Assembly (NCBI GenBank): GCA_021295715.1
Contig: JAGWBV010000021.1
Span: 1 to 62,610 of the forward strand
DNA from: Candidatus Poribacteria bacterium
GTDB taxonomy: Bacteria; Poribacteria; WGA-4E; WGA-3G
DNA: 62,610 nt
Reading direction: 5' to 3'
In this document: positions 5,507-50,475 of the stretch, one piece after another
Layout of the letters: the number at the start of each line of letters is the position of its first letter
Numbering within the stretch: the stretch's first letter is position 1
The notes under the pieces: model-generated
The model's database searches: none
Seen by the model: the letters and a program-made list of their open reading frames with translations, nothing else
What the model was told of the DNA's origin: nothing
Made by a program: the position numbers and the translations under genes

Positions 5507-5593
5507 CAGCACGCAACAACGGCGCGGGCGGATACTATGAAAGAACCGTTAAATCTCGAATCGCGTCGTTCTTCCGCAAGGTATAATTAAAAA
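5507..5593 (+). repeat. F1 repeat, copy 1
   Basis: F1 elements are about 85-130 bp long. They have a 5' hairpin (typically GCCTGC, loop AACAACGGC, GCAGGC), a GGAT...GAGAAAGGCAC..TCAAA middle, and the tail CCGCAAGGTAAAATTAAAA. Here the stem is GCACGC/GCGGGC with one mismatch and the tail reads CCGCAAGGTATAATTAAAA. It lies in the leader of the CmcJ-like gene, 24 bp before its start. Confidence 0.8.
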
Positions 5594-5617
5594 TTTCCAG
5601 CACAAAGGAGATTACCC

Positions 5618-6556
5618 ATGGCACAACGAGAAACGCTACCGTTCGTGGAATCAACTGGTAGTTTTGCGAACGCAAGGTACCGAGGGACCCGCATGCCGCC
5701 CCCAGAATGGGTTAAAAATCCCGATGAACGGGAAAACATGTATGTGCGGGAGGCGATCAAGGTCTACAACGCGCGTCTGTTGCAGCCGCCTCCAAACCTT
5801 GAGGTAAACGGCTTCCAGTTGGTAGACGCAGATACGCAGGTGAGGAATCTGAACGATCAGGATGCCGTAACGACGCGCTTCTATCAGGAGTGCGCTGACC
5901 TCATCACGGCGATTACAGGTTGCAGCGAAACACGGGTCATGCAACACCAATATCGGAATGGGTTCGGGGGACTTCCTAAGGACCATCCACGTGGCAATAA
6001 ACCGACCCCAAACGGAAGCGAAGGCACCTACGGGGGCATCCATTCAGATGTCAGTCCATATTCCGAAGACGGGTTTGAAAAGATTGCCAATGGGAAGCAT
6101 TTTCAGATGTACAATGTGTGGCGGAGCACCGATCTGGAAAGAGATATTTACGTCATGCCACTCGCTATTTGTGACATGGCGACGGTTGCGCCGGAGGATA
6201 TAATTGCCGCCGATGCTTGGTCGCAGACGCAAACGCCGAGACGACTCGTCAGTTTACGACTCGTGCATAATCCGAACCAGCGTTGGTATTACTTTCCACG
6301 GATAACACCGCAGGAGACGCTGATTTTCAAGCAGTATGACACACGTCAAGAGCAGTCGAACATGCGGACAGCCTTTCACGGTGCGATAGACGATCCGACA
6401 ACACCGGAAGACGCGCCGCTCCGCGAAACGATTGAAGTGCGTCTGCTCGCGCTGTTCGATGAAGATACTGATCGGGAGGCAAGGAAAGCACGGTTTCAAG
6501 CCGAGGTCCCCGAGACCCACACCGACGGCAAAATCTCTGATTGGGTAGAGCAATAG
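5618..6556 (+). CDS. CmcJ/NvfI-family Fe(II)/2-oxoglutarate oxygenase-like protein
   Basis: 312 residues resembling the CmcJ/AsaB/NvfI family of non-heme iron oxygenases. The iron-binding HxD is in GGIHSDVSP (His142, Asp144). A distal FHGAID (His254) and the family-typical RETIEVR (269-275) would supply the third ligand and the 2-oxoglutarate-binding arginine. The start follows AAAGGAG with good spacing. It is monocistronic, with its own promoter, and converges on a Gfo/Idh/MocA gene across a three-hairpin element. Substrate unknown; family members modify antibiotics, toxins or small metabolites. Confidence 0.82.
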   Translation: MAQRETLPFVESTGSFANARYRGTRMPPPEWVKNPDERENMYVREAIKVYNARLLQPPPNLEVNGFQLVDADTQVRNLNDQDAVTTRFYQECADLITAITGCSETRVMQHQYRNGFGGLPKDHPRGNKPTPNGSEGTYGGIHSDVSPYSEDGFEKIANGKHFQMYNVWRSTDLERDIYVMPLAICDMATVAPEDIIAADAWSQTQTPRRLVSLRLVHNPNQRWYYFPRITPQETLIFKQYDTRQEQSNMRTAFHGAIDDPTTPEDAPLRETIEVRLLALFDEDTDREARKARFQAEVPETHTDGKISDWVEQ

Positions 6557-6578
6557 CCAGTATAAGTAAGGTAAACCT

Positions 6579-6670
6579 GGTTCGTAGTAGCGCAATTTAT
6601 TGCGCTTTCGGGACATGCGATAATGCACATCGCATTTGGGCGAGTACGCCGCAAAATCGAACGACGAACC
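6579..6670. other. Three-hairpin, cloverleaf-like element between convergent genes
   Basis: An outer stem GGTTCGT (6579-6585)/ACGAACC (6664-6670) encloses three separate hairpins. These are AGCGCAAT-TT-ATTGCGCT (6589-6606), ATGCGAT/ATCGCAT with a 7-nt loop (6615-6635), and GGCG-AGTA-CGCC (6639-6650). No tRNA features are present. It could be a terminator complex, a small structured RNA or a palindromic repeat unit. Confidence 0.6.
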
Positions 6671-6716
6671 TACCCTAAAATTCAAAATGGATGGAACGGT
6701 AGGGCTTGATATCCGA

Positions 6717-7769
6717 TTAACGATCTGCCGCTGCTTGTTTTGCTTTGTTGATTTCTGTCAATATGTTCATGGCGTGCAATGACTCCGCTTTGTCGTATTG
6801 CGGACACTGACGTAAACCCGCAGCGAGACAGCGGTGGACTGCTTCGGCTTGATAGAGAAAACCGTGTTGATTCGGAGAGGATCTCGCCATCGCGACAGAC
6901 CCGGGCAATGGATACTCAAAGTAATGCAGCGGTGCAGGTGCATTGCGTGTCCTGTATTGCGAAGGCACGCCGTTCGGTGGTGGGATTCGGATGGAAATAC
7001 GCGTCGGACAATGTGCGGGTCGCTCAAGTGTAATCCGCCCCTCGGTGCCCACGAGTTCTGTCACCTCTGGGAGTTCAGAGTTGCGCGGTGGGAATGTCAG
7101 TATCGCGTATTTATCTTCACCGTAGTCTACAATTGCCCCACCGGCGTTGTTGACGACGACAGTAACCGATATCGGCACAGCAGCGGCACCGAAGGCGAGC
7201 GGTGCCGCTTGAACAGTGTAGATTGGGTCGAAGAAGTCGGACTGTGTTAGCACAACCTCTCCAATCGTGCCTGCCTCAATGGCGGCGCGAGCATGCTCCA
7301 CCGCAGGGAAAAAACGGGTCCACATGCCGTCCTGCATCATCACATCCTTCTCCTCGGCTGCTGCATACATCTCTTGCGCATCGGAAAGGGTCTCGGTGAG
7401 CGGTTTCTCACAGAGCACATGTTTGCCCGCCTCAATGGCGAGAAGGGTATGTTCCTTGTGCAGTCGGTTGATCGTGCCGATGTATACAATATCTACGTCA
7501 TCGGCTGCAACCATTTCTCTATAGTCCCCGTAAGGAGTCGCGACCCCATACTGACTCGCAAATTCTTTCGCTCGGTCAATCTCCCGTGCCGCGACAGCAG
7601 TTACAGTTGCGCCTTCGCAGGCGTGTAAAGCCCACACCCACTGCGCTGAGATGTTACCAGCACCGAGAATACCCCAACGCAATGGAAAAGCGACATCTGC
7701 CGCACTTGTAAGCCCACGGCGAATATCCAGTGGTGTTGAGAGAGGCATGTTGTTTGTCATAGAGTTCAT
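6717..7769 (-). CDS. Gfo/Idh/MocA family oxidoreductase
   Basis: 350 residues; Rossmann loop GAGNISA at 36-42, CEKP at 120-123. It has the dihydrodiol/glucose-fructose oxidoreductase-like C-terminal barrel, with QDGMWTRFFPAV in the substrate region. The long N-terminal extension (MNSMTNNMPLSTPLDIRRG) is retained because AAAGGGG sits six bases before the ATG at 7769. Predicted cytoplasmic NAD(P)-dependent sugar dehydrogenase. An F1 repeat lies between it and the next minus-strand gene. Confidence 0.88.
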   Translation of the reverse strand: MNSMTNNMPLSTPLDIRRGLTSAADVAFPLRWGILGAGNISAQWVWALHACEGATVTAVAAREIDRAKEFASQYGVATPYGDYREMVAADDVDIVYIGTINRLHKEHTLLAIEAGKHVLCEKPLTETLSDAQEMYAAAEEKDVMMQDGMWTRFFPAVEHARAAIEAGTIGEVVLTQSDFFDPIYTVQAAPLAFGAAAVPISVTVVVNNAGGAIVDYGEDKYAILTFPPRNSELPEVTELVGTEGRITLERPAHCPTRISIRIPPPNGVPSQYRTRNAPAPLHYFEYPLPGSVAMARSSPNQHGFLYQAEAVHRCLAAGLRQCPQYDKAESLHAMNILTEINKAKQAAADR

Positions 7770-7860
7770 AGCGGTCCCCTTTCGTCAAAGCAGACTTAGT
7801 GAATAAGATGATTTAGAAGGGATGCTGTTAAGAAAATTAGGAAAATTATAGTTAACCGTT

Positions 7861-7949
7861 AGCCCGTAACGAAGTGGAGGGCGGATATACAGAAAGGCAC
7901 GCGAAAGTCTCAAACCCATGTCGTTTTTCCGCAAGGTAAAATTAAAAAA
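7861..7949 (+). repeat. F1 repeat, copy 2 (GTAACGAAGTGGA loop type)
   Basis: The hairpin is GCCC-GTAACGAAGTGGA-GGGC, a different stem and loop from the AACAACGG type but still paired. The tail CCGCAAGGTAAAATTAAAA ends four bases before the stop codon (7953-7955) of the convergent dehydrogenase gene. Confidence 0.8.
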
Positions 7950-7952
7950 CTG

Positions 7953-8966
7953 TTATGCCCACGCGTCGAGGACGACTTTTCCACAGTCATGTGTACACTG
8001 CAATGCCCAGGCTTCCTGAATCTGGCGCATAGGGAAGGTGTGCGTGATGAATGTATCCAACTGATCCTTCACTTGTGTAATCATCCGCATCATAGCAGGA
8101 GTGTCTGAAAGGTTGTAATGCCGCGTGCCGTGTAATATCAAGCCTTTATTGATAATAGCACTTCCCTGAATTTCCACGTCACCAATGCCGCCAATCAATG
8201 CAATGTGTCCTTTCGGGCGTGTTACGTCAATCAATAATCGGACTGCTGCGGAAGCCGCTGAGCACTCCACGCCTTTGTCTGCGCCTCTGCCATCTGTCAT
8301 ATCCCGAATCTGATCGGCGACATCTTCATCTTGTGGGTTAACGACTTCTGCCGCACCGAGTTTTTTCGCCAGGTCCGCTCGATACGGATGGCTCTCAACA
8401 GCGATGACGCGCGCACCTCTATACACTGCGTTAATCACACCACCAAGCCCAATAGGTCCCATCCCCGTAATCAGAATAGTATCAAACGCGCTGACATTCA
8501 TCAACCGCATGGCATTGGATGTTGATCCGAGTCCACAGCATGCCATTCCAGCGTGATCATAGGAGACCCCATCCGGGATCGGCACCAGTAGCCAGTCCTG
8601 CTTAAGGATGTACTGCGCGTAAGTCGCCGTCACACCTGTCTGTTCGGTAACGTGTAGGATCTTGTTGTCGTCTGGGCAGTGCGCATATTCGCCTGTTAAG
8701 CAGACATGACACTTTCCACAAGGATAGTGTGGCATGACGACAACGCGGTCGCCTACCTTAACAGTGCCTTCTTGTGCGATGTCTACCACTTCACCAGCCG
8801 CTTCGTGTCCGAAACTGTCGCCTTTATGTTCGCTTTTGAAGCCTTTGTATTCTGTACACATGGGTGCCGAATGAATTTTCACGACGACAAACTCACCCTT
8901 GGCAACCGGGTCGGGTTTATCTATTAAGCCCGCACTTTCGGGGCCGAATTTTGCAACGACTTTCAT
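7953..8966 (-). CDS. Zinc-dependent alcohol dehydrogenase (MDR family)
   Basis: 337 residues from an ATG at 8966 preceded by GGAGGT; an in-frame ATG at 8996 lacks a ribosome site. Catalytic zinc: Cys37 (APMCTEY) and His54-Glu55 (GHEAAGE). Structural zinc: Cys83, Cys86, Cys89, Cys97. The nucleotide loop is GMGPIGLGG. The substrate is not predictable; the enzyme may work with the neighbouring Gfo/Idh dehydrogenases in polyol or sugar oxidation. The 3' end abuts an F1 repeat tail. Confidence 0.88.
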   Translation of the reverse strand: MKVVAKFGPESAGLIDKPDPVAKGEFVVVKIHSAPMCTEYKGFKSEHKGDSFGHEAAGEVVDIAQEGTVKVGDRVVVMPHYPCGKCHVCLTGEYAHCPDDNKILHVTEQTGVTATYAQYILKQDWLLVPIPDGVSYDHAGMACCGLGSTSNAMRLMNVSAFDTILITGMGPIGLGGVINAVYRGARVIAVESHPYRADLAKKLGAAEVVNPQDEDVADQIRDMTDGRGADKGVECSAASAAVRLLIDVTRPKGHIALIGGIGDVEIQGSAIINKGLILHGTRHYNLSDTPAMMRMITQVKDQLDTFITHTFPMRQIQEAWALQCTHDCGKVVLDAWA

Positions 8967-9022
8967 CGATACCTCCATTCTTTGAAGAAGGCACAACCTA
9001 ACAGGCTATGCTACAAAACATT

Positions 9023-9107
9023 GACTGCAACACCGACGCAGGCGGATAGAGGGAAGGTGCATCAAACATGGAACCGATTCCACTACTCCGCAAGGAAAAG
9101 TTAAAAA
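9023..9107 (+). repeat. F1 repeat, copy 3, overlapping a stop codon
   Basis: The hairpin is CTGC...GCAG. The tail reads CCGCAAGGAAAAGTTAAAA. The TTA in the tail (9101-9103) is the TAA stop codon, read on the minus strand, of the MFS transporter gene. Confidence 0.75.
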
Positions 9108-10471
9108 TCCGTTTCTTCTGCGGTCTCATCTTCGTGCATAATTTCCTTTAACTGGAGTCCGATCCGGAAAGCAGCGAGGCAGATACCTACCGATATAGCG
9201 AACAACCACCGATAACCGATATAAGGCGCAAGAAACCCACCAAGGAGCGGCGCACAACTCACAGGCATAAGGAGCGTGTTCATGAAACCGATGTAACTCG
9301 GACGGTTCCGAGGCGGCGCGATGTTTAACATGTACGCCATGAAACCTACCATCATGCCGTTTGCCAAAATACCTCCAACGATGAAGATCAGGAGGAAGGC
9401 AGGCATTTGTAATGATGTCGGCAATATACCGGAAGAAAAGGCGAGCGCAGGCGGAATACCCATCAGAGCCGCTGTGATAATCAGCAACCATCGGACACCA
9501 TACTTTTCACCGATATGTCCCCACAATGCGTTTGAAATCACACCACTCAACGCAGAACAGACGATGAAAAATCCCATCGTCGCTTCTGAAAATCCTAACT
9601 CATTCAATGCATACGGCATGTAGAACGGAGATGCCATGCCGGAAAAGTGTGCAAAAACACGGAAGAAAATGAAACGTCGGTAATTTTCGTCTGTCCGCAG
9701 GAAGTAAGCACCGTGTTTTAGATGTTGCCACATCGGTTGCCGCCTCGGATGAACAGGATGAATAGGCTCGCGTACTCCTAAAAAACTCACAAAAGAGAAG
9801 AACGCTGCCGCCACCGAACAGACGAAGAGAAAAGCGTAGTTATACGGAAACCCAAGATCGGTATCCAGGCGACAAACGGAACCGATAAAATACATGGTGA
9901 CTGTTTTAAAAGTCTGTGTGATATTCCCCAATATGCCCGTAAATTCAGATTCGTCTCCGAGTACTGCGCGAACCAAGAATCCAACCCAAATCGCAAAAAA
10001 GCCACCATAGAGTTGGCGCAAGCTAAAGAAACGGGCGCGCTGCTGCGGTGCTATCGCTTTAGAAACGATGTCCATGTACGGAAGGGTCGAAACACCCATG
10101 GCGGAAGAGGATAAAAAATAAAGGCACAGAAAGGAGGCGGCGAGCAGCGTTGGGTTTTGTTCACCAATTGTGATCGTGCAGAAGAAGACAGCAAGCCATG
10201 CTAAAACCCGAACACTCATACCGAGCGCGTAGAATGGCATTTTTCTCGGACGGTGTTCAAGCAGGTTCGACATCAGCAGTTGGGGCCACATCCATCCTGC
10301 CGTCATCATTGAGCCCGTTAAACCTACCAGAATGTCGGAACCGCTTAATTTATGAATAAAAGCAGGAAGCACCGTCGATGAGTCCGCAAACGCTAAGTTA
10401 ATACGCATAAAGGTGCCTTGAAGCAGCGCAAATCGAAAATTTCTCCGTTGGTCACCTACTTTTTTAGGCAT
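9101..10471 (-). CDS. Major facilitator superfamily transporter
   Basis: 456 residues with about 12 hydrophobic segments and the MFS layout of two six-helix halves. There is a long cytoplasmic loop near the middle (VREPIHPVHPRRQPMWQHL) and a conserved WGHIGEKYGVRW loop in the second half, the duplicated MFS loop motif. Substrate unknown; the neighbours suggest uptake of a sugar or sugar derivative. The stop codon lies inside an F1 tail, so the last residues were probably set by the repeat. The ATG at 10471 follows AAGAGAG at short spacing. Confidence 0.85.
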   Translation of the reverse strand: MPKKVGDQRRNFRFALLQGTFMRINLAFADSSTVLPAFIHKLSGSDILVGLTGSMMTAGWMWPQLLMSNLLEHRPRKMPFYALGMSVRVLAWLAVFFCTITIGEQNPTLLAASFLCLYFLSSSAMGVSTLPYMDIVSKAIAPQQRARFFSLRQLYGGFFAIWVGFLVRAVLGDESEFTGILGNITQTFKTVTMYFIGSVCRLDTDLGFPYNYAFLFVCSVAAAFFSFVSFLGVREPIHPVHPRRQPMWQHLKHGAYFLRTDENYRRFIFFRVFAHFSGMASPFYMPYALNELGFSEATMGFFIVCSALSGVISNALWGHIGEKYGVRWLLIITAALMGIPPALAFSSGILPTSLQMPAFLLIFIVGGILANGMMVGFMAYMLNIAPPRNRPSYIGFMNTLLMPVSCAPLLGGFLAPYIGYRWLFAISVGICLAAFRIGLQLKEIMHEDETAEETDF

Positions 10472-10940
10472 TCTCTCTTTTGTTCCTATCCAAACTTTTT
10501 GTTTTTACGGTGGATCCTAAAAATAAGTAGACATTCCACAGAACGACAGACCTATTCCCACCACTGCTGGCGGGGTTTGCAACCCCGCCTATAATTTTCA
10601 AGTAATTTTAATATCCGCTATATAGTTGTCATCCCGCAGCCAGAGCACCTTTGCGTGTTACAATCATTAGCAGTTCACCTTACTGACTGCTGAAAGCGGA
10701 GCGACCTGATTGCTAACGGCTACTTATCTTTTGACATAATTTTCGCAATTAGGTTGAATTGAAATTTCCATCGTGTCTTCGGTCCCCAAACAAAATTTCC
10801 TTTACAGTGTCTCAAAGTCGTGCTAAATTTTATAGAGTTTACACAATTTTGACCAGATTCCGCTCGCTGAGATGGCGAACCGTCAAAAGACACACGCGGT
10901 TTCCTGGTACATCCTTACAGGTTATGCTACAATAACCTCA
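10472..10940. other. Gene-free stretch with dispersed repeat pieces
   Basis: No ORF with coding character is seen. It contains an F3 hairpin (10569-10589), F2-like TGACTGCTGA words near 10680-10725, and AT-rich sequence towards 10860. A TTGACA occurs at 10734-10739 without a convincing -10 element. Confidence 0.6.
10569..10589. repeat. F3 hairpin
   Basis: GGCGGGGTT-TGC-AACCCCGCC, a perfect 9-bp stem preceded by GCT. Related units with compensated stems are at 13862-13883 and 33927-33948, and degenerate ones at 36378-36435 and about 54690. Confidence 0.75.
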
Positions 10941-11072
10941 AAACCCGTAGCGCGTAATGAAATTGTGCCTTAAAGTGCATAATTTGTCTTTGCTTTACAT
11001 TTGGAGAGCGGATATAAGAAAGGCACTCCAAAGATAGAACCCGCGTCATTTAACCGCAAGGAAAAATTAAAA
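10941..11072 (+). repeat. F1 repeat, copy 4, with internal insertion
   Basis: Carries the GTAATGAAAT...GGAG loop type, but with about 35 extra bases between GTAATGAAAT and TGGAGAGCGGAT compared with the copy at 45651. The tail is CCGCAAGGAAAAATTAAAA. It is followed by a second F1 copy. Confidence 0.7.
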
Positions 11073-11100
11073 TCTGACCATCCCTTTTAAAAACGGATTG

Positions 11101-11190
11101 CCAGCCTGCAACAACGGCGCAGGCGATTCCAGAGAAGGATGTGTCAAAGTTCTAACCTATGTCGTTCTCCCGCAAGGAAAAATTAAAAAA
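11101..11190 (+). repeat. F1 repeat, copy 5, abutting a start codon
   Basis: The stem GCCTGC/GCAGGC is perfect. The tail CCGCAAGGAAAAATTAAAA ends two or three bases before the ATG at 11192. The tail is open in the reading frame of the gene, so a longer but false start at 11159 is possible by ORF calling. Confidence 0.8.
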
Positions 11191-11191
11191 T

Positions 11192-12145
11192 ATGGAACCT
11201 CTTCGAATTGGATTTCTCGGTGCCGGCGGATTCGCAAGGCATACCATTTATCCGGCACTACATCTCGCCCCTGTCGCATTACAAGCTGTTTGCGATGCCG
11301 ACGAAAATCGTGCAAAGGACGCTGCCGGCAAATTCGGTACAGGAAGATATTACACCGATCGGCACGAAATGTTTGAAAAGGAAGACTTGGAAGCAGTCAT
11401 CATCAGCATGGGACCCGACCCAAGGCAGCCGCTCGTGCTTGAAACGCTCGCGGCGGGGTATCATGTATTCACACCAAAACCGCCAGCACCATCGCTCGCC
11501 GAAACGATCACGCTGGCGGAAACCGCAGAACAGCACAATAAAACATTGATGGTAAACTTCCAACGTCGGTTCAGCCTCGGTGTGCGGGAGGCAAGACAGA
11601 TTATGCAAACCGAATCCTTCGGACAACTCACACAACTCTTCTGCTCATTCTGTAGCGGTAAGTACCCGACGGTCAAAAGTTACCTGCTCGATTTCGCCAT
11701 CCACCACTTCGATTTGGCGCGGCACATCGCTGGCGCGGATGTGAAAGAACTCAGCGTTTTTCACAATGAAGTCGATGGACAAGGTGCCTTTGCTGTCGCC
11801 GTAGAATACACAAACGGCGCGGTGGGAAGTTTACAGTTGACCAGCCAACGCTTGTGGCAGCGTAACTATGACTACATCGAAATTACAGGACAACACGAAT
11901 ACATCGTTTTAGACGGGTTGTGGGGGGCACAGCACTTCACCGAATCCGGGAACACTTTTACCTCAAATTTCTCCGATCAGCGCAACGGAGAGCTGACAGG
12001 CGATGGTATCAGTCTTACCGAGTTCGTCAATGCCATTCGTGAAGACCGAGAGCCAATATCCAGCATACATGACTGTGTTGGCACGATGCGGTTCTACGAT
12101 GCTGTCCTTCAACGCAAAAAAGGCGTTATTTCCTTAGTTGATTAG
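11192..12145 (+). CDS. Gfo/Idh/MocA family oxidoreductase, atypical TPKP motif
   Basis: 317 residues starting MEPLRIGFLGAGGF. The Rossmann loop is GAGGFARH (10-17). The usual (C)EKP is replaced by TPKP at 94-97, so the lysine is kept but the glutamate is lost. DFAIHHFDLARHIAG gives the conserved His/Asp of the C-terminal domain. An upstream in-frame ATG at 11159 would translate the F1 repeat tail and is rejected. A ribosome site would have to come from the repeat (AAGG about 12 bases before the ATG). Probably a sugar dehydrogenase acting with the next, convergent polyol dehydrogenase. Confidence 0.85.
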   Translation: MEPLRIGFLGAGGFARHTIYPALHLAPVALQAVCDADENRAKDAAGKFGTGRYYTDRHEMFEKEDLEAVIISMGPDPRQPLVLETLAAGYHVFTPKPPAPSLAETITLAETAEQHNKTLMVNFQRRFSLGVREARQIMQTESFGQLTQLFCSFCSGKYPTVKSYLLDFAIHHFDLARHIAGADVKELSVFHNEVDGQGAFAVAVEYTNGAVGSLQLTSQRLWQRNYDYIEITGQHEYIVLDGLWGAQHFTESGNTFTSNFSDQRNGELTGDGISLTEFVNAIREDREPISSIHDCVGTMRFYDAVLQRKKGVISLVD

Positions 12146-12232
12146 CGCGTCACCTCTCCCGCATCTCCATGTCTCGCCTCATAAGCAAGGGGCGAGACAC
12201 GCAGCATAGGCTAACAGTCTATGCCGCAAAAA

Positions 12233-12322
12233 GCAGCCCGCAACAACGGCGCAGGCGAATCCTGAGAATGGCGCGTCAAAGTGATAATCTACGTCGTTCC
12301 TCCGCAAGGAAAAATTAAAAAA
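12233..12322 (+). repeat. F1 repeat, copy 6, overlapping a stop codon
   Basis: The AACAACGGC loop type is present and the tail is CCGCAAGGAAAAATTAAAA. The TTA at 12315-12317 inside the tail is the stop codon, read on the minus strand, of the dehydrogenase 12315-13763. Confidence 0.8.
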
Positions 12323-13763
12323 TGCTTTCTAATACCTCAAGACACGTCTCTCCGTTAACCAACCGATGATAATATCCGCTGACGCGTTCCATAAAGTCCC
12401 GGTTCCCGTCCAAGCCGCTCGGTGACGCAGCACTGGCAGGCGACCACAATGCCGTGTTTGAGAGGATCGCCTTGATCCGTTCTGCTACATCTGATTCACT
12501 TACCCCAAACGTCCCTTTCAGAATGTCCTGTATCGTCCGATCAGGATCACGGATTTCGTATACCTCGCCAGTATCGGTAATACCTTTATAGTCGTCAGGA
12601 GGCGAGATTGTATGCGGTGTCAGAAACCGAAGTACGGTTGCGAAGGAATACGCGAAGTCAGATTTGAAGAGTTCTGTACTCGCATCATAGTTCGGTGAAC
12701 GAACAATATCGGCGGCGCGTTCACGAAGTTTCACTGTTTCAATGATGTTGATCCGGGCGTTGTCGTCTTTGACTCGACGGATGCGCGCAACGAATTCCAA
12801 TGAATATGCCAGCGCGCTTTTCCCTGCTATCGGGATGTCCGCCTCTACAATCTTAGCGTATCCATCCATCAGACGTTCGAGATGTGGTGCAAACGTTGGG
12901 TGTGCCGCTGCTTCGTTGACATATTCAATACCAGAGAGTGTTCCTTTGTGCGTAATCCCCGGCACATGCACAGAATTCACCAAAAGCAACTTCCAGTCGT
13001 GATACGATTCAATACTCTCCTGACTCACAACAACACCGTAGTCTTGAAGTTCACCGAACGGCACACGCAATAGGTCGTCCGAATCCTCCAGGATAAGTGG
13101 TGTCGCTGGCATTGCCTCGGCGTATGTTATCAATTCATCTTGGCTTTCGATCCGTGCACGCGCCTCCTCTTGAATCTCATCGGGCACAGCATAGACTTGC
13201 GGCACAAGGCGGTCTCCCATTTCATTGAGAAACCCCACGTTTGTTTCCAACCACGCCGCGTAATCATCGTTCCGTTTCGGATACTCGTTGCAGAGAATAT
13301 CGCGGAGAATATCGCCGTTATTTCGGAGGTTATCGGTGTTGATGACACAAAGCGTCGCCTCCGCACCGTGATGACAGAAATAGCAATAGAGCGTCTCTTC
13401 CAAAACATCCATCGCCAGTTCACCCTTGGCGATTCCGGCTTCAGTTACACCGATAAGGAGGAGGTCCAATGAATGTTCCGTCTGAGCATAAAACTGCTCG
13501 CGTCCTGCCGCTGTGGCAAGTGTTGTCGCCCCAACGACGCTTGAGACCTGTTGGATGTCGTGAACACCGCTCATATCGAACGTGACAACATGGTATACGC
13601 CGCCTTGTTGGTTGAAGGCATCGGCTTTCTCAGTGCCACGCGGCTGACCCACAAAGATACCGCCGTCATAGAGGTTCCGTTGGTTGAGGATATGAACAAA
13701 TTCATGGGTTAAGGCGCGTTGTAAACCACCCGCACCGATAGCAAGTATTTTGGTTGGCAGCAT
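12315..13763 (-). CDS. Mannitol dehydrogenase / altronate oxidoreductase family protein
   Basis: 482 residues of the polyol-specific long-chain dehydrogenase family (UxaB, MtlK). The N-terminal KILAIGAGGLQRAL is the nucleotide-binding loop. VINTDNLRNNGDIL matches the N.DN...NG signature. KLLLVNSVHVPG corresponds to the K.x(n)NG.H catalytic region. It would interconvert a hexuronate or ketose and a polyol or aldonate. A GGAGGT lies 13 bases before the ATG, longer than usual. Its last residues (ESIF) and stop fall in an F1 repeat. Closest named relatives are tagaturonate reductases; the substrate is uncertain. Confidence 0.78.
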   Translation of the reverse strand: MLPTKILAIGAGGLQRALTHEFVHILNQRNLYDGGIFVGQPRGTEKADAFNQQGGVYHVVTFDMSGVHDIQQVSSVVGATTLATAAGREQFYAQTEHSLDLLLIGVTEAGIAKGELAMDVLEETLYCYFCHHGAEATLCVINTDNLRNNGDILRDILCNEYPKRNDDYAAWLETNVGFLNEMGDRLVPQVYAVPDEIQEEARARIESQDELITYAEAMPATPLILEDSDDLLRVPFGELQDYGVVVSQESIESYHDWKLLLVNSVHVPGITHKGTLSGIEYVNEAAAHPTFAPHLERLMDGYAKIVEADIPIAGKSALAYSLEFVARIRRVKDDNARINIIETVKLRERAADIVRSPNYDASTELFKSDFAYSFATVLRFLTPHTISPPDDYKGITDTGEVYEIRDPDRTIQDILKGTFGVSESDVAERIKAILSNTALWSPASAASPSGLDGNRDFMERVSGYYHRLVNGETCLEVLESIF

Positions 13764-13799
13764 TTTTTACGTTTAAACCTCCGTTTTCCATTTCTATTT

Positions 13800-13922
13800 T
13801 CCATTTGGCTGTCGGCTGTCGGTTTCCATCAGCAAAGGGGGTTCTGTTATTTTTTCCCGCTGGTGAGATTTCCCAATCTCGCCTACTGACTGCTAATTGC
13901 TGACAGCTGACAGGGTTGTGTC
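13800..13922. repeat. Composite F2/F3 repeat region
   Basis: F2-like GGCTGTCGGCTGTCGG words are followed by an F3 hairpin at 13862-13883 (GGTGAGATT-TCCC-AATCTCGCC), then more F2 words (TGACTGC, TAATTGC, TGACAGC). Compared with the 10569 copy, the F3 stem has changed on both sides and still pairs. Confidence 0.7.
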
Positions 13923-13940
13923 AGCAACCCGTGCTGATGG

Positions 13941-15077: not shown

Positions 15078-15090
15078 CAAAATTTTTTTC

Positions 15091-15220
15091 TTTTTAATTT
15101 TTCTTTGCGGTTTGGTCAGGTGAGTCTGAATATTAGCGTGCCTCCCGTAGAGCTGAAGAACACCCAAGCAATACGCAGAAATACCCAAGCAAAACATGCC
15201 TCCGTTTCATTACGGGCTAC
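15091..15220 (-). repeat. F1 repeat, copy 7, with nested F5 element
   Basis: Minus-strand copy of the GTAATGAAACGGAG loop type. F5 words (TTTTGCTTGGGTATTTCTGCG and a second GCTTGGGTGTTCTTC) are inserted between the hairpin and the middle. The tail CCGCAAAGAAAAATTAAAA lies just upstream of the glycosyltransferase start. Confidence 0.75.
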
Positions 15221-15235
15221 GCGCTTTGAATGATC

Positions 15236-16114
15236 TTAAGTAATCACATACGACGTTACAAATTCAATAATCACGCCAGCGATATTGATGCCTGTGACCG
15301 ACTCCAACGCCTCAAATCCCGGCGATGGGTTGACTTCCAGAACGACGGGTCCCCCGTTTGTCTGGAGCAGATCAACCCCGGCTATTTCCAATTCCAGTGC
15401 TGCTGCCGCTGCTATAGCCAAGCGAGTGTATTCGTCTGTCAGTGCTATAGCCTCTCCAGACGCGCCTTTGTGAATATTCGCTCGGAATTCACCCTGAGGC
15501 GCGCTCCTTTTCATCGCCGCAACGGCTTCGCCTCCTACGACCAGAACACGGATGTCAACCCCACCGGCTTCCGCAATAAAGGACTGGATAACATAGTCCT
15601 GATGGAGGTCGCACAGCGCATCTACAGTCGAGCTAAGCGATGTCGGCGTATCTAACAACATAACGCCCGTGCCGTGTGTGCCGTGAAACGGTTTTAAAAT
15701 AAAGGGATACTCCCCGACTTCCGCCACAGCGTCATCTAAAAATGTGGCGGAACCGACGGTGAGACTCGGTGGGATAGGTAAGCCGTGCTGCGCAAGGATG
15801 CGGAGGGAGTGGAATTTGTGGCGTGCCGTCGCAATCGATTTTGCCCGATTCACCACAGGCGTTCCGATCCATTCAAAATGCGCCAAGACCTCTTCGCCGT
15901 ACTGCGCTGTCGTCCGGCTGAGCCGTGGCACGATGACATCAAAATCTTCTGCCGGTTTCCCATGATAGGTAATACGATTACCGGTGCCACCGATATGGAG
16001 ATAGAAACCGAAGGGATCTAAAATTTCTGCGGCGTGTCCTGAAGTGATGGCTATTTCGCTAAGCCTGCGTGTGGAGTGATTTTGAGGTCCCCGTGAGAGG
16101 ATACCAATTTTCAT
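15236..16114 (-). CDS. RimK-like ATP-grasp ligase
   Basis: 292 residues. The N-terminal pre-ATP-grasp domain begins MKIGILSRGPQNHSTRRL. The ATP-grasp core shows YPFILKPFHGTHGTGVMLLD (glycine loop with the ATP lysine), VIQSFI hinge, DIRVLVVGG, FRANIHKGA and a C-terminal VLEVNPSPGFEALE metal site. The family ligates glutamate or other amino acids to peptides, proteins or cofactors (RimK, LysX, MptN). It ends with FVTSYVIT. No ribosome site is obvious before the ATG. No LysW or F420 partner is adjacent, so the substrate is unknown. Confidence 0.88.
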   Translation of the reverse strand: MKIGILSRGPQNHSTRRLSEIAITSGHAAEILDPFGFYLHIGGTGNRITYHGKPAEDFDVIVPRLSRTTAQYGEEVLAHFEWIGTPVVNRAKSIATARHKFHSLRILAQHGLPIPPSLTVGSATFLDDAVAEVGEYPFILKPFHGTHGTGVMLLDTPTSLSSTVDALCDLHQDYVIQSFIAEAGGVDIRVLVVGGEAVAAMKRSAPQGEFRANIHKGASGEAIALTDEYTRLAIAAAAALELEIAGVDLLQTNGGPVVLEVNPSPGFEALESVTGINIAGVIIEFVTSYVIT

Positions 16115-16247
16115 AGTGTTATGACAGAATCAAAATCCTCTGCTGATGGAACAGATGTAGAAATAAACGCTAAAAAACCTACTTTTCCATTCCAAGTCAA
16201 TCCAGATTTTGAGTGTTTACTTCCCTTGCTCGAATGGAGACATAATC

Positions 16248-16781: not shown

Positions 16782-16809
16782 AGGGTAAACCTTTCTATAG
16801 GTATAACTC

Positions 16810-16960: not shown

Positions 16961-16979
16961 TAGAGATAGGTGACTCACG

Positions 16980-18275: not shown

Positions 18276-18276
18276 G

Positions 18277-18363
18277 TTTTTAATTTTCCTTGCGGAGTAA
18301 TCAAGCGGGTTTGAACTGTTGTGTGCCTTCCACCTATCCGTCCTCCACTTCGTTACGGACTAC
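18277..18363 (-). repeat. F1 repeat, copy 8, abutting a start codon
   Basis: Minus-strand copy; hairpin GTCC-GTAACGAAGTGGA-GGAC, a third paired version of the stem. The tail CCGCAAGGAAAATTAAAAA ends one or two bases before the ATG of the kinase-like gene at 18275. Confidence 0.8.
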
Positions 18364-18411
18364 AGGTTTTTGAGGGTGTCGTAAGAGAGACCCTTTGTTA
18401 GACGGGAACCT

Positions 18412-37138: not shown

Positions 37139-37242
37139 TATTTGTTGGTTGGCGATTAGCAATTATGGTAGATATCAGAATTAAGTAGACACTTCGGAGT
37201 CGGTGCGGTTAGGAAACCGTACCTACTTTCTAATCAAAAACG

Positions 37243-37350
37243 GAGCCCGCAACAACGGCGCGGGGTTTTTGCTTGGGCGTTTCTTCAACTCGAATACGAG
37301 AACCTTCAAAGTTCATAAGGGTCTTTCTTATCCGCAAGGTAAAATTAAAA
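37243..37350 (+). repeat. F1 repeat with nested F5, abutting a start codon
   Basis: GCCCGC...GCGGGG hairpin of the AACAACGG type, then F5 (TTTTTGCTTGGGCGTTTCTTC). The tail CCGCAAGGTAAAATTAAAA ends one base before the ATG at 37352. Confidence 0.8.
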
Positions 37351-37351
37351 G

Positions 37352-38200: not shown

Positions 38201-38902
38201 ATGCTAAACAAAAACACAACACTTCTCATACTGTTTTATACGCTCATTCACTGTCCCCTTTCTGTCTTCGCCGAGACGTGGCACGACGATTTCGATGCGG
38301 AAAAACCCGATGCGTGGCGGGTCGTCGGGAACGATTCCATCTGGAAAATCAGCGACGGTTTCTTACACGCGGAGGTCAACCGGGACTGGGATGTCCAATA
38401 CGAACTCTACCAATTCATCGCGCGCCCACCCCCCTACAGAAACTTCACAATCACGATAAACGACTTCGGTGGCGACAAAACACGTTTCGGTTTTTGTGTA
38501 GGACGCCGCTTTCCCGACACTCCAGAAGAAGATCCCTTCTTCTACGTGTTTTTCCCCGATGAAATCAGGGCAAGGCGTTTCGATGGTAAAGGGAGCAGCC
38601 ACCCCTTCCGAACTCGGCTCTCCAGAGAACCACGCACCCGCTGGGAAACGGATGTCCTCTCAAAGATGGAACTGCAATTTAATGCCGGGCATTTCGTGTT
38701 GTTGACAGACGGTAAACTCCGGACAGCATTTCAGGATGCGAACTTTGATAAGATCGAAATTCTCGGTTTCGTCATGGAAGGCATCAACATCGCAAACGAG
38801 TGGGTCGGCGCGGCGTGGGCGGATTCCTTCACCATTTCTGGTCTGAACGTCGCTCCAGAGATAAGATTAACCCTAATTTGGGGAAGACTCAAGCAAAGAT
38901 AA
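38201..38902 (+). CDS. Secreted LamG/DUF1080-like protein of family B (copy 2)
   Basis: 233 residues: signal peptide (LLILFYTLIHCPLSVFA), then ETWHDDFDAEKPDAWRVVGN, DSIWKISDGFLHAEV, NFTITI, TRFGFCVG and AFQDANFDKIEILGFVMEG. It parallels copy 1 along its whole length, including the closing GRLKQ/AHLKQ ending. Likely a secreted carbohydrate-binding jelly-roll. It completes the A-B-A'-B' array; the next gene is an unrelated transporter. Confidence 0.68.
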   Translation: MLNKNTTLLILFYTLIHCPLSVFAETWHDDFDAEKPDAWRVVGNDSIWKISDGFLHAEVNRDWDVQYELYQFIARPPPYRNFTITINDFGGDKTRFGFCVGRRFPDTPEEDPFFYVFFPDEIRARRFDGKGSSHPFRTRLSREPRTRWETDVLSKMELQFNAGHFVLLTDGKLRTAFQDANFDKIEILGFVMEGINIANEWVGAAWADSFTISGLNVAPEIRLTLIWGRLKQR

Positions 38903-38914
38903 AAAACACCCAGT

Positions 38915-39248
38915 TCAAGAACGGCGTAGGCGGCTCGTAAGAGAGGCTGCCGATCTACAGACCGCCTTTATTCCTCCGCAAGGTAAGTTTAAAATTTAGT
39001 AATTTCATAAATGGCAGCCTGCAACAACGGCGCAGGCGACTCGTGAGGAAGACAGTCGTTCTGCGAATCACCTTTATTACTCGGCGAGGTGGGTTTAAAT
39101 CTTAGTGGTTCTGTAAACGGCAGCCTGCAACAACGGCGCAGGCGACTCGTGAGAAAGGCAGTTGTTCTAAAACCCCCTTCATTACTCCGCAAGGTAAAAT
39201 TAAAAATTCGCAAGATAAACTTAAAAATTCGCAAGGTAAGTTTAAAAA
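38915..39248 (+). repeat. Three tandem F1 repeats with a triplicated tail
   Basis: Copies begin near 38915, 39014 and 39120; the second and third are 105 bp apart. The last copy ends with three tail units of about 21 bp (CCGCAAGGTAAAATTAAAA, then CGCAAGATAAACTTAAAA, then CGCAAGGTAAGTTTAAAAA). The final one touches the ATG at 39249. Confidence 0.85.
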
Positions 39249-45395: not shown

Positions 45396-45412
45396 AACTT
45401 TGCACTAAATCT

Positions 45413-45525
45413 GTAGCCTGCAACAATACGCAGAAACACCTAAGCGAAAACACGCAGGCGGGTCTACGGAGAGGCAGGTAAAAGTTCAAACCCACCTGAC
45501 CGAACCGCAAGGTAAAATTAAAAAA
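45413..45525 (+). repeat. F1 repeat with nested F5 in the hairpin loop
   Basis: GCCTGC and GCAGGC arms are separated by an inverted F5 (ACGCAGAAACACC...AAGCG). The tail CCGCAAGGTAAAATTAAAA is followed by ATG, but only a very short ORF follows. Confidence 0.8.
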
Positions 45526-45536
45526 TGAACTGGAGG

Positions 45537-45624
45537 GGTTTTTGCTTGGGTGTTTCTTCAGATCTGCGGAGAGGATCGTTGTTCATTCAGGCGACCTCAC
45601 CGAACCGCAAGGAATAATTAAAAT
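45537..45624 (+). repeat. F5 plus F1 tail section
   Basis: TTTTTGCTTGGGTGTTTCTTC, then GCGGAGAGGATCGTTG and the tail CCGCAAGGAATAATTAAAA. The middle and tail are nearly identical to the next copy. Confidence 0.75.
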
Positions 45625-45650
45625 TTGTATTCAGTTAAGGTTCAAGATTG

Positions 45651-45737
45651 TAGCCCGTAATGAAATGGAGGGCGGCTCTACGGAGAGGATCATTGTTCAT
45701 TCAAGCGACCTCACCGAACCGCAAGGAATAATTAAAA
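45651..45737 (+). repeat. F1 repeat running into the Trm112-like gene
   Basis: Hairpin GCCC-GTAATGAAATGGA-GGGC, middle identical to the previous copy except for a few bases, tail CCGCAAGGAATAATTAAAA. At the point where other copies meet ATG, this one meets ATT (45737). Confidence 0.8.
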
Positions 45738-45919
45738 TTTCAAAAACGCTACTTGAGATTCTGGCGTGTCCAGCATGTAAAGGTGGAATAGAACACGATG
45801 AAGCAGGACAGAAACTGGTATGTGTCGGCGAATGTCACCGTCGCTATCCGATCCGTGAAGGCATCCCAGTCATGCTGATTGATGAAGCGGAATTACCCGA
45901 CGAAAAACTTGGCGAATGA
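45737..45919 (+). CDS. Trm112-like zinc-ribbon protein, possible ATT start
   Basis: About 60 residues of the Trm112/UPF0434 (YcaR-like) family: SKTLLEILACPACKG, a second CVGECHRRYPIREG and IPVMLIDEAE. The four cysteines give a zinc ribbon. Family members normally begin M-(x)KKLLEIL, which aligns the first residue with an ATT codon at 45737, nine bases after AAGGA in the F1 tail. The nearest in-frame ATG (45665) lies inside the F1 repeat and would add 24 repeat-encoded residues. The gene thus either uses a non-standard start or has gained an N-terminal extension from the repeat. It is followed 21 bp later by the glycosyltransferase gene. Confidence 0.7.
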   Translation: MSKTLLEILACPACKGGIEHDEAGQKLVCVGECHRRYPIREGIPVMLIDEAELPDEKLGE

Positions 45920-45940: not shown

Positions 45941-47167
45941 ATGAAGATTCTATTTTTAAGCCTCCGATGTCCGTATCCACCGCATCGGGGTGATCGGATC
46001 CGGTCTTACAATTTTATTAAACAACTTTCGAAACAACATGCCGTAACGCTCGTTTACTTTGCAGAATCTGAAAGCGATATTGAATCCGCGAAGCATTTAG
46101 AACCTTTTTGTGAACGCGTAGAATGGGTCCGTTTTCATCGTTCTTTTGCTTTCATGAATACAGGGATCCACTGCTTATCGCGTCGTCCCCTTCAGTTGCA
46201 TTACTGGTACGCGCCCCAGATGCAACGCAAGATTAACCAACTCCTCGAGCAAGAAGACTTTGAATTGATTCACGCACAACTCTTTCGGATGGGACAATAC
46301 GTGGCGGAAGTCCAGGGTCCCACCAAAGTCTTAGATTTGTGTGATTCATTGGCACTAAATCTCAGTCGCCGCGCCGAACTTGAAAGCAATCCGTGGCTTG
46401 CAAAAATTAAATTAGATTGCACTCCGAAGCGTTTTTTGGTAAAATTAGAAGAAAAGCGGGTCCGGCGTTACGAAGTCAACATTATGAAGGCTTTTGACTG
46501 CGGCACCGTTGTCGCACGTTTTGATCAGGACTATCTCCTGAAGCAGGACAACAGTCTAAATCTGTCGATAGTTCCAATGGGGGTCGATCTCGGGTATTTT
46601 CAACCGAAGCCAACAACACACTCCGCACCGTTGATGCTCTTTACCGGCACAATGAACTATTTTCCGAACTCGGATGCTGCGATCTATTTTTGTAACGAAA
46701 TTTTTCCACGTATCCGAGAAAGTCATCCAAACGCGCAGTTTTATATAGTAGGCAATCATCCATCGGATCAGGTAAAGCGGCTTGAGACACACGACGGTGT
46801 AGTCGTTACAGGTTATGTCCCGGACGTTCGTCCCTATTTTGAAAAGGCATCTGTTTTTGTTGCCCCTTTACGTGCAGGGTCAGGCATACAAACAAAGAAT
46901 CTGGAGGCAATGGCGATGGGAGTCCCAGTCGTCACAACCTCCGTCGGCGCAATGGGGTTGGAGGCAGACATCGGCAAGGAATTGCTTGTTGCCGATACTC
47001 CTGTCGACTTCGCAAAACAGGTCATTCATTTACTGAATAATCAGCAGTCGCGAGAGACCCTCGCCCAAACTGCCAGAACCCGTGTCGAAACCAATTATAG
47101 TTGGGAAGCCATCGGCGAACGCTTAAAGCACGTCTATGCACAAGCAGTTCATACACGGGAAATTTAA
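45941..47167 (+). CDS. Glycosyltransferase, TIGR03087-like (GT4)
   Basis: 408 residues. MKILFLSLRCPYPPHRGDRI matches the start of sugar transferases linked to PEP-CTERM/EpsH exopolysaccharide systems (TIGR03087 type). LFTGTMNYFPNSDA and SGIQTKNLEAMAMGVPVVTT are the donor-binding signatures of GT4. It probably adds a sugar to a lipid-linked polysaccharide. It lies between the Trm112-like gene and the epimerase, all on the plus strand. Its stop codon (47165-47167) lies in the tail of a minus-strand F1 repeat. No exosortase is visible. Confidence 0.87.
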   Translation: MKILFLSLRCPYPPHRGDRIRSYNFIKQLSKQHAVTLVYFAESESDIESAKHLEPFCERVEWVRFHRSFAFMNTGIHCLSRRPLQLHYWYAPQMQRKINQLLEQEDFELIHAQLFRMGQYVAEVQGPTKVLDLCDSLALNLSRRAELESNPWLAKIKLDCTPKRFLVKLEEKRVRRYEVNIMKAFDCGTVVARFDQDYLLKQDNSLNLSIVPMGVDLGYFQPKPTTHSAPLMLFTGTMNYFPNSDAAIYFCNEIFPRIRESHPNAQFYIVGNHPSDQVKRLETHDGVVVTGYVPDVRPYFEKASVFVAPLRAGSGIQTKNLEAMAMGVPVVTTSVGAMGLEADIGKELLVADTPVDFAKQVIHLLNNQQSRETLAQTARTRVETNYSWEAIGERLKHVYAQAVHTREI

Positions 47168-47281
47168 TTTTACCTTGCGGCGTATTGTCCCACAGGTTTC
47201 CTCTATAGGAGACTGCGCAAAGATCATTTGAACTGTTGCGTGCGTTCCATCTATTCGTCCTCCACTTCGTTACGGACTATA
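47166..47281 (-). repeat. F1 repeat overlapping a stop codon
   Basis: Minus-strand copy, hairpin GTCC-GTAACGAAGTGGA-GGAC, tail CCGCAAGGTAAAATTAAA. The tail reaches the TAA of the glycosyltransferase gene coming from the other side. Confidence 0.8.
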
Positions 47282-47316
47282 ATGTATAGTGATCTATAGC
47301 ACGCCCTTACAAGAAG

Positions 47317-47350
47317 GTAGCTTGCAACAACGGCGTAAGCGGACCTTAAG
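47317..47350 (+). repeat. Solo F1 hairpin
   Basis: GCTTGC-AACAACGGC-GTAAGC: the loop is conserved while the stem has changed on both arms relative to GCCTGC/GCAGGC. No tail follows. Confidence 0.7.
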
Positions 47351-47419
47351 CGGAAACATCTATGAAACAAATTGCTTTATTTAACGGCTTGCGACTAATT
47401 ATAAATTTGAGGAGGGAAT

Positions 47420-49453: not shown

Positions 49454-49461
49454 TTTTTTGC

Positions 49462-49564
49462 CTATTGAATCTGGAAATCGCTCCAAATGTAAATGCAGAA
49501 AACCGAAGCCATTCAATAGCGAGTAGCGTATGGAGGACAAATTATGCCATTTAAGGCATAATTT
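49462..49564. terminator. Two hairpins between epimerase and sugar transferase genes
   Basis: CTATTGAAT (49462-49470) pairs with ATTCAATAG (49511-49519). A second hairpin, AAATTATGCC/GGCATAATTT with a 6-nt loop, spans 49539-49564. Either could attenuate read-through. Confidence 0.45.
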
Positions 49565-49620
49565 CGTTTCGCGGTGGTTTCTGGTCAAGTGAGGGTTGAA
49601 TCCGGAACAAGGGGAATTCT

Positions 49621-50289
49621 ATGGATCATACGAAGCGTTTCGCGGTAGACTCTCAAAATGTGATAAAGTTCAACCGCGACTGGGCAAAACGAACCTTCGA
49701 TGTCCTATTCGCGACAATTGGATTCCTGTTTTTGTCCCCCCTTTTTTTCCTTGGGAGCCTGCTCGCAAAATTTCAGTCAAAAGGACCTGTATTTTACAAG
49801 GCAAAGCGCGTCGGCAGAGGCGAAACTATCTTTGAAATGTATAAATTCAGGACCATGGTAGTCAACGCCGATGCGATCGGTGGTAGCTTGACAACCTATA
49901 GGGATGAACGGATTACACCTATTGGTAGGTTCTTGCGGTGGACAAAGTTGGACGAACTCCCAAACTTAATCAACGTTATCAAAGGTGAAATGAGTCTCAT
50001 TGGACCACGTCCAGAGGCACCCGATTACGTCAAGCACTACACACAGACGCAGAAACAGGTCCTACAAGTGAAGCCAGGAATGACCGGTCCATCACAGCTC
50101 GCGAATCGCGATGAAGAGGAGAAACTCAAAGGTCAACTCGATGCGGAGCATTACTACATAACAGAGTTGATGCCAAAAAAGCTTGCGTTGGATCTCCACT
50201 ATATTGCAACACAGAGCATCGCTGCTGATATAGGGTGGTTGCTAAAAACTTTTTGGGTGGTCATCTTCACACCGCGCCGCTCCAAATGA
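49621..50289 (+). CDS. Undecaprenyl-phosphate sugar-1-phosphate transferase
   Basis: 222 residues of the WbaP/PglC-type initiating transferases. One N-terminal membrane hairpin (FDVLFATIGFLFLSPLFFLGS) is followed by the catalytic FEMYKFRTM region, WTKLDELPNLINVIKGEMSL and IGPRPEAP. It loads a sugar phosphate onto undecaprenyl phosphate to start exopolysaccharide or O-glycan assembly. AGGGG lies upstream of the ATG. It works with the epimerase and glycosyltransferase just upstream. Confidence 0.93.
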   Translation: MDHTKRFAVDSQNVIKFNRDWAKRTFDVLFATIGFLFLSPLFFLGSLLAKFQSKGPVFYKAKRVGRGETIFEMYKFRTMVVNADAIGGSLTTYRDERITPIGRFLRWTKLDELPNLINVIKGEMSLIGPRPEAPDYVKHYTQTQKQVLQVKPGMTGPSQLANRDEEEKLKGQLDAEHYYITELMPKKLALDLHYIATQSIAADIGWLLKTFWVVIFTPRRSK

Positions 50290-50344
50290 GGAATAAAGGT
50301 AAAATCGGTTATCGGTGAAGAGGTTTTCGTTAGCTCCAAGCATA

Positions 50345-50475
50345 TAGCCTGCAACAATACGCAGAAATACCCAAGCAAAAACACGCAGGCGGATTCGAGG
50401 GATGTACTTCAAAATCCAGACGCACACTGTTCCTCCGCAAGGTAAAATTAAAGATCCGCAAGGTAAAATTAAAAA
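50345..50475 (+). repeat. F1 repeat with nested F5 and doubled tail, abutting a start codon
   Basis: GCCTGC...GCAGGC with an inverted F5 in the loop. The tail occurs twice (from about 50436 and 50457), and the second CCGCAAGGTAAAATTAAAA touches the ATG at 50476. Confidence 0.85.

Follow-up and report, generated by a model that had tools for sequence, protein, structure and literature searches.

Small dispersed repeats of bacterial genomes are usually viewed as neutral passengers or as structures formed in DNA or in transcripts, and in cyanobacteria tiny repeats of this kind are nested in other repeats. As far as described in the accessible part of PMC3049150, BOX, RUP and SPRITE elements are over-represented between convergent genes. 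The accessible part of PMC3733652 describes the GTAG REP elements of the REP/RAYT system as short palindromes with GTAG at their foot, which are present in many intergenic copies and have ends that touch coding regions or provide stop codons. Here we analyzed a stretch of 62,610 nucleotides (the window; contig C21 of a genome of 5.14 Mb, labelled G000) from the sponge-associated bacterium Candidatus Poribacteria and describe F1, a family of dispersed repeats that resembles the GTAG REPs in these respects, with GTAG itself in part of its copies. F1 has covarying stems, a 3' end locked to gene starts and a fast turnover between close relatives. Unlike BOX, RUP and SPRITE, F1 lies mostly in sense orientation in tandem gene pairs.

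F1 is a new family of a known type of small dispersed repeat, with unusual placement, and is probably a non-coding, non-autonomous element of about 97 nt that has spread within a single Poribacteria genus. From 5' to 3' it consists of CCAAAACCCGTAG, the hairpin P1, a middle part that forms a second stem weaker than P1, CCGC, AAGG and an AT-rich tail (CCGCAAGGTAAAATTAAAA), the 3' end being this 19-nt tail. In 108 full-length copies conservation sets in about 10 nt 5' of the AG at the P1 foot and declines towards background 15-20 nt upstream. The foot reads GTAG in 60 of 110 full-length copies and GCAG, ATAG, CAAG or similar in the others. Genome-wide, the tail was found 464 times at up to two mismatches (220 forward, 244 reverse), against a single match for the reversed pattern. 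Among the best 80 loci of at least 118 stretches with exact tail matches, a list that possibly omits the window's own record, all named genomes were Poribacteria. In the window, 19 tails at up to four mismatches were listed, and the covariance model R1 recovered 18 copies.

The original prediction had described copies in both orientations between genes, hairpin stems that keep pairing while their bases change, two loop types and a conserved 3' tail. All of this was borne out: 15 of the R1 copies are on the plus and 3 on the minus strand, P1 has two loop types, and the stems GCCTGC/GCAGGC (11101, 39014, 39120), GCTTGC/GTAAGC (47317), GCCC/GGGC (7861, 45651) and GTCC/GGAC (18277 and 47166, minus strand) were seen directly in the sequence. 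The hairpin at 28291, which had been counted as a member, did not match R1 at E ≤ 0.1. Its stem and loop are of the F1 kind, the loop resembling type 2, but it has its own ends and flanks and is for these reasons taken as a separate repeat family. Rfam searches of the window returned only two tRNAs at gathering score and no family for F1; a permissive scan (E ≤ 5) of positions 5000-19000 gave three matches at chance level, all far below gathering score, one of which (ZFAT-AS1_3; 20.1 of 70 bits, E 1) overlaps an F1 copy. No description of F1 was recognised in open-licence full texts, including a term search in the accessible part of PMC3909097, and the parts of PMC2229807, PMC3049150, PMC3733652 and PMC4679880 cited here likewise contain no account of it.

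The most informative new fact, overlooked in the original prediction, is that the tail sits at set distances from gene starts and stops. Placement was determined for non-tandem copies in 462 kb of the own genome (the window and loci L013-L032) relative to open reading frames (ORFs) of at least 80 codons. Thirty-seven of 75 copies ended 0-3 nt before a start codon (27 at 1 nt, 6 at 2, 2 at 0 and 2 at 3), compared with 0.2-0.5% per distance, and 0.3% at 1 nt, for 2726 random positions outside long ORFs. In four related genomes (G052, G073, G082 and G053), 39 of 92 copies ended 0-3 nt upstream of a start codon and 31 were at 1 nt, the counts of G052 and G073 overlapping since part of their copies are common by descent. 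Loci from a pattern scan, which were selected for the tail and overlap with G082, gave 85 of 178 non-tandem copies within 0-3 nt and 60 at 1 nt. At a distance of 1 nt, 12 nt separate the tail's AAGG from the ATG, a plausible position for a Shine-Dalgarno motif judged from sequence. Over about 480 kb, GCAAGG stood 8-14 nt before ATG in 35 of 337 genes and a canonical 5-mer in 128 of 337. Five window genes with F1 0-3 nt upstream were searched against Pfam and encode an EamA transporter, an S49 peptidase, an AAA-domain protein, an oxidoreductase and a protein without a family; in this small sample of five, the F1-led genes are unrelated and have no shared theme.

The same end of F1 also meets gene stops. 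According to simple greedy and uncurated ORF calls, under which reverse copies read through in another frame may be classed elsewhere, 42 copies were sense and 12 antisense in tandem gene pairs, 8 lay between divergent and 2 between convergent genes, 6 were inside ORFs and 5 at contig edges; in this set 24 sense copies were at distance 1 from the start. Among the 14 antisense and convergent copies, the stop of the gene lay exactly 6 nt inside the tail in nine (in the window those at 9012, 12225 and 47161) and 7 nt inside in one. The reverse tail reads TTT TAA and thus supplies an in-frame stop. At 9012, the orthologous gene of G082 ends with GCC TAA at an unchanged position, and in other genomes three of four reverse copies had the stop at the same place. 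Together with the register at starts, these in-frame TAA codons show that one end of F1 abuts both starts and stops.

Taken together, we lean towards reading F1 as a dispersed leader element whose 3' end doubles as a ribosome-binding site. A sense copy that lands with its tail against a start codon would become the 5' leader of the gene, and its AAGG and A-rich spacer would take over ribosome binding. A reverse copy landing against a gene end would provide an in-frame TAA through its tail. Copies would then pile up at gene edges because landings there are tolerated, and they would later be lost, recombine or take up further small repeats in their P1 loops. A role as portable ribosome-binding leader is likely, though unproven; we infer both the role of AAGG in translation and tolerance as the cause of the placement. 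A stronger version appears rather doubtful: here F1 would be a mobile module for translation initiation that targets start codons and replaces 5' leaders throughout the genome, several unrelated repeat families would vie for the slot before ATG, and genes would swap ribosome-binding sites faster than their coding sequences diverge.

F1 is concentrated in part of the genus. At up to one mismatch, nine genomes contained 76-301 tails, 28 contained 1-40 and one none; the eight genomes nearest to the window by DNA comparison of one 5.4-kb region are the other eight high-copy genomes. Model matches at E ≤ 0.001 were found in 37 of 38 genus genomes, counts that are floors because 49 of more than 1000 first-look candidates were scored per genome, and in 5 of 46 genomes outside the genus with 1-4 each. 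G079, a one-contig genome of the genus, had one marginal match (33 bits, E 0.001; 150 of 1235 candidates scored) and no excess of tails at up to three mismatches (1, against 2 in the control). G083 had 6 model hits. Full F1 copies were also seen in other genera of the phylum (L009 from G018 and L010 from G045), with one or three model matches per genome, and transfer between lineages is a possible source of them.

Between close relatives the turnover of F1 is fast. The genomes G052, G073 and G065 are 94.8-95.9% identical, and among the 80 gaps listed between them 26 contained an F1 tail and 21 differed in tail number, at 18 distinct places. An orthologous flank was available in G073 for 28 G052 copies, of which 18 were common to both genomes and 10 absent from G073. 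At one place, the aligned flanks are 15 nt apart in G073 (GGAAAATGAATCG) and 149 nt apart in G052, where an F1 tail ends 1 nt from ATG. A second place has AAGGAGAAAGCATTATG in G073 (AAGGAG, AAGG 10 nt before ATG) and AAGGAAAATTAAAAAATG in G052 (F1, AAGG 11 nt before ATG). At the window copy 7851..7948, the aligned blocks are 159 nt apart, as opposed to 12 nt in G082, and at the 47161 site only the 3' half of F1 is present in G065, G073 and G052, in opposite orientation. The gene at 50476 has F1 before the orthologous ATG in G052, G076 and G082; in G065 F1 is present in the stretch compared, which reaches to the tail, the stretch compared in G073 holds the P1 part with repeats inside and after it, and G053, G060 and G049 have other sequence. 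Start-adjacent and other copies were also compared for retention. From G052 to G073, 9 start copies were common and 4 absent (others 9 and 6), from G073 to G052 8 and 0 (9 and 5), from G000 to G082 3 and 2 (2 and 5), and from G000 to G052 1 and 3 (2 and 4); six further genome comparisons held 5 to 7 copies each and gave trends in both directions. These counts, which are partly doubled, weakly suggest that start-adjacent copies are retained longer.

F1 is assembled in a modular way from sub-repeats, namely variable P1 loops and modules of R24, a 24-nt repeat (ACGCAGAAATACCCAAGCAAAAAC and variants) found in either orientation, within P1 loops, following P1 or on its own. Of 275 non-redundant tails sorted by script, 103 had an intact short P1 and 74 lacked P1, while 64 carried a loop insert, 18 had R24 following P1 and 16 were of a mixed class. 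The 64 loop inserts include many false arm matches. By eye, 25 inserts with both P1 arms kept, two of them from the mixed class, were recognised, and these comprised at least six kinds. The nesting of R24 in P1 loops resembles, in description, that of the cyanobacterial repeats. At one orthologous site, even G052, G065 and G073 differ from each other in their P1 loop and R24 modules. A P1 loop with such varied inserts offers a place to study the nesting of very small repeats.

Several observations weigh against the leader reading. About half of the F1 copies are away from starts, and AAGG was intact in 34 of 35 start copies and also in 32 of 38 others (73 examined of 80 R1 matches). Since copies away from starts keep it nearly equally, its conservation alone is no proof of translational use, and the tail seems to be maintained for some non-translational reason too. 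The register is sharper than would be expected from selection on spacing alone. At two loci, the F1 tail is joined to AATGAAATGG or a similar sequence that lies within an older copy's P1 loop. The ATG there is no start, which suggests that the register at starts may stem from the way in which F1 is joined. In the opposite comparison to that above, 17 of 22 G073 copies were common with G052 and 5 absent; some copy differences come from loss, and presence or absence does not tell gain from loss.

Several of these points would also fit a spread of F1 by recombination or template switching between gene starts through ATG microhomology, without a transposase, in which the register is a by-product of strand joining. 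The sharp 1-nt register, the two ATG junctions inside P1 loops, the exchange of P1 modules at one orthologous site in genomes about 95% identical, the missing target-site duplication and the lack of a correlate among Y1, RVT_1 and IS110 agree with it. However, NATG follows only 3 of 38 non-start copies, and homology at ATG leaves the in-frame stop junctions of reverse copies unexplained. We regard this mode of spread as a tentative possibility.

A dedicated driver was also sought. Y1 transposase genes, as in RAYT systems, are present in 37 of 38 genus genomes, and their number does not follow that of F1: G000 and G049 have one each, G076 (89% complete) has none and the low-copy G081 has 12. 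No F1 tail lay within 1.4 kb of the gene at 19 Y1 loci, a subset of those known, some with shorter fetched flanks. Several Y1 genes (L209-L219) adjoin clusters of other hairpin repeats, such as GTAGGAGGGAACTCCG or CACCCCGTAGGGGTG. IS110 was found in 0 of 16 genomes tested, and RVT_1 in 6 of 16, with no match in G000, G073, G076, G082 and G049. The original prediction noted that no transposase gene is linked to F1, and this holds for Y1, RVT_1 and IS110, the families covered by the search. It also named remnants of a known insertion sequence (IS) end as what would speak against it; none carrying F1 was found, the neighbourhoods inspected being those of Y1.

F1 could also belong to the GTAG REP type and be mobilised in trans, as a hairpin of single-stranded DNA, by a RAYT (Y1) transposase. 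In favour of this idea are the GTAG below P1 seen in 60 of 110 full-length copies, the hairpin, the absence of a target-site duplication, and the TAG stops for neighbouring ORFs reported for REPs in the accessible part of PMC3733652. It is opposed by the Y1 copy numbers, by the 19 Y1 loci, where several genes adjoin other hairpin repeats, and by the second stem and long tail, which simple REPs lack. We therefore consider it somewhat doubtful, and a RAYT-driven REP was rejected as an established fact. IS110 and reverse transcriptase were rejected as drivers of F1, since the former is absent from all genomes tested and the latter from several F1-bearing ones. Viral carriage was likewise rejected, with 0 exact tail matches in a viral collection.

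The fold of F1 was analyzed in alignment A2, which comprised 80 of 110 full-length copies (all 6 from the window and 74 drawn at random by script). In 105 copies, the P1 pairs were CG 91/TA 11, CG 78/TA 20/AT 5 and CG 51/TA 48, the last (third) pair partly tracking the loop type, and CG 75/TA 30 at the inner pair. The second stem was obtained from a column scan of A2 (columns 41-80, 42-79 and 47-70). In the resulting 13-pair structure, 84.8% of cells were paired against 72.5±0.7 in shuffles, the covariation score was 0.431 against 0.213±0.011, and 171 cells were changed on both sides against 62.5±10, with 13-42 in slid controls; for each measure, 0 of 500 shuffles reached the observed value. 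The number of pairs with two-sided change (8 against 7.5) and of further pair types (24 against 23.3) showed no excess over shuffles. These controls lean towards the 13-pair structure because it was picked on the same alignment and the copies are related. Pairing reached 97.5% of cells in P1, and 83.2% and 70% in helices 4 and 5 of the second stem. RNAalifold recovered P1 from 36 copies and did not recover the second stem. Chimera folding of this stem gave z -3.1 for one subtype in one region and +0.6 to -1.4 in five other tests; because this test was weak, column covariation was used.

F1 is thus constrained in structure, in DNA or in RNA, as had been predicted from the compensated pairing, and the covariation was not lost when more copies were added. 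Over the five pairs of the second stem, GU was found 71 times and AC 33 times; without column pair 43-78 the numbers were 28 and 31. As the GU excess hangs on this one pair, the wobble asymmetry is not decisive for RNA. Wobble intermediates are nearly missing from P1 (UG 3 and CA 4 cells at three pairs, 105 copies), as would be expected if its compensated changes arose by templated correction from arm to arm of an inverted repeat during replication instead of selection on the fold. This explanation is unlikely, as the second stem is long-range and imperfect and yet covaries (CG, AU, GC and GU at columns 41-80), and the P1 arms remain paired around inserts that are tens of bases long.

Two covarying stems directly 5' of the presumed ribosome-binding site, the fixed distance to ATG and the sense bias in tandem gene pairs (42 versus 12) could also be taken as signs of a cis-regulatory RNA, such as a riboswitch-like or protein-binding leader, that controls a regulon and is kept by selection on regulation. 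However, G079 of the same genus shows no tail excess and no more than one marginal match, those downstream genes that were inspected are unrelated to each other, and roughly half of the copies lie away from starts. Retention at orthologous genes fails, with 10 of 28 G052 copies absent in G073 and 5 of 22 in reverse, and no Rfam family except tRNA reached gathering score in the window. A regulatory RNA is therefore improbable.

An origin as remnants of a known IS end or of a classical miniature inverted-repeat transposable element (MITE) would suit short, dispersed, non-coding and intergenic copies and is very improbable, as the ends (CCAAAACC..GTAG and ..GTAAAATTAAAA) are not inverted repeats by inspection, no 4-6-mer flank match indicative of a target-site duplication was enriched in 108 copies (a single site had a duplication-like AATGA), and no F1 ends were found at the 19 Y1 loci or IS110 in the 16 genomes, the IS families covered; a MITE with inverted ends and target duplications, neither of which was seen, was rejected.

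The F1 copies of the window are listed below. In the copy at 45405..45524, the adjoining AATGAACTGGAGG looks like the P1 loop of an older F1 copy.

Copies of F1 and of the 24-nt repeat R24 in the window, with scores of the covariance model R1
Feature	Position	Strand	Remarks
F1	5498..5593	+	75.3 bits; type-1 loop; tail 25 nt before ATG at 5618
F1	7851..7948	+	88.2 bits; type-2 loop; antisense in tandem gene pair, 5 nt from minus-gene end
F1	9012..9107	+	58.4 bits; antisense to minus gene 9101-10471; tail gives TTT TAA (G082 orthologue GCC TAA)
F1	10939..11073	+	72.8 bits; P1 loop holds another repeat
F1	11093..11189	+	75.5 bits; tail 3 nt before ATG at 11192
F1	12225..12321	+	79.9 bits; tail gives TAA to minus gene 12315-13763, followed by non-start AATG
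F1, degenerate	15091..15228	-	35.9 bits; contains reverse copies of R24
F1	18276..18371	-	80.9 bits; tail 1 nt before ATG at 18275 (minus strand)
F1	37234..37351	+	40.8 bits; reverse R24 after P1 3' arm; tail 1 nt before ATG at 37352
F1, tandem array copy 1	38902..38995	+	45.8 bits; repeat D19
F1, array copy 2, degenerate tail	39006..39101	+	42.9 bits
F1, array copy 3	39112..39206	+	75.6 bits
Two extra tandem tail units	39208..39247	+	last one 1 nt before ATG at 39249
F1	45405..45524	+	80.1 bits; R24 variant in P1 loop; joined to AATGAACTGGAGG
F1	45525..45624	+	33.1 bits; reverse R24 after P1 arm
F1	45642..45738	+	83.9 bits; type-2 loop
F1	47161..47288	-	52.8 bits; type-2 loop; reverse tail is stop of plus gene 45941-47167
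F1	47309..47405	+	33.7 bits; GCTTGC/GTAAGC stem; decayed tail; canonical GAGGAGG before ATG at 47420
F1	50336..50454	+	66.6 bits; R24 in P1 loop
Second tandem tail unit	50456..50474	+	1 nt before ATG at 50476 (S49 peptidase gene)
R24	50356-50384, ~45430-45450, ~37262-37285, 15170-15196, 16833-16859, 54749-54777	both orientations	

Other repeats were noted in the window. Tandem repeats of the CTGAYNGC type (D12/D14) lie between genes at 1792, 13883, 38163, 51403, 54799 and 60630, and in relatives such repeats directly precede the start codon where G000 has F1. A gene cluster at 21227-25970 is built of repeats of about 126 nt (D1-D5) that perhaps encode WD40-like repeat proteins, and imperfect tandem repeats of about 36-41 nt lie within an ORF at 52067-52193 (D20).

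F1 provides a large natural set of dispersed copies, many of which place a plausible Shine-Dalgarno motif at a constant spacing from the start codon. Should F1 serve as a ribosome-binding site, translation signals would be spread by repeat dispersal, which would rewire the expression of many genes at once, and the close relatives with and without each copy form a ready comparative test.

Compared with described systems, F1 differs from the GTAG REPs by its second covarying stem and its start-locked tail of 19 nt, and by its absence near the 19 Y1 loci. With the pneumococcal BOX elements, as described in the accessible part of PMC3049150, F1 shares the modular build from small repeats, BOX being transcribable as 5' extensions of operons; this likeness is one of description, and that part of the source reports no lock to start codons. 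As F1 probably is, the ERIC, RUP and Correia-type miniature elements are non-autonomous, and they are sometimes transcribed with genes according to the accessible part of PMC2229807; classical MITEs have terminal inverted repeats, of which none are apparent in F1. The TAACTGA repeats of marine Beggiatoaceae are likewise dispersed and lie no more than several nucleotides from the start codons of functionally unrelated genes; as far as the accessible part of PMC4679880 describes them, they are direct repeats of a heptamer with little Shine-Dalgarno character, whereas F1 combines AAGG at Shine-Dalgarno distance with covarying stems.

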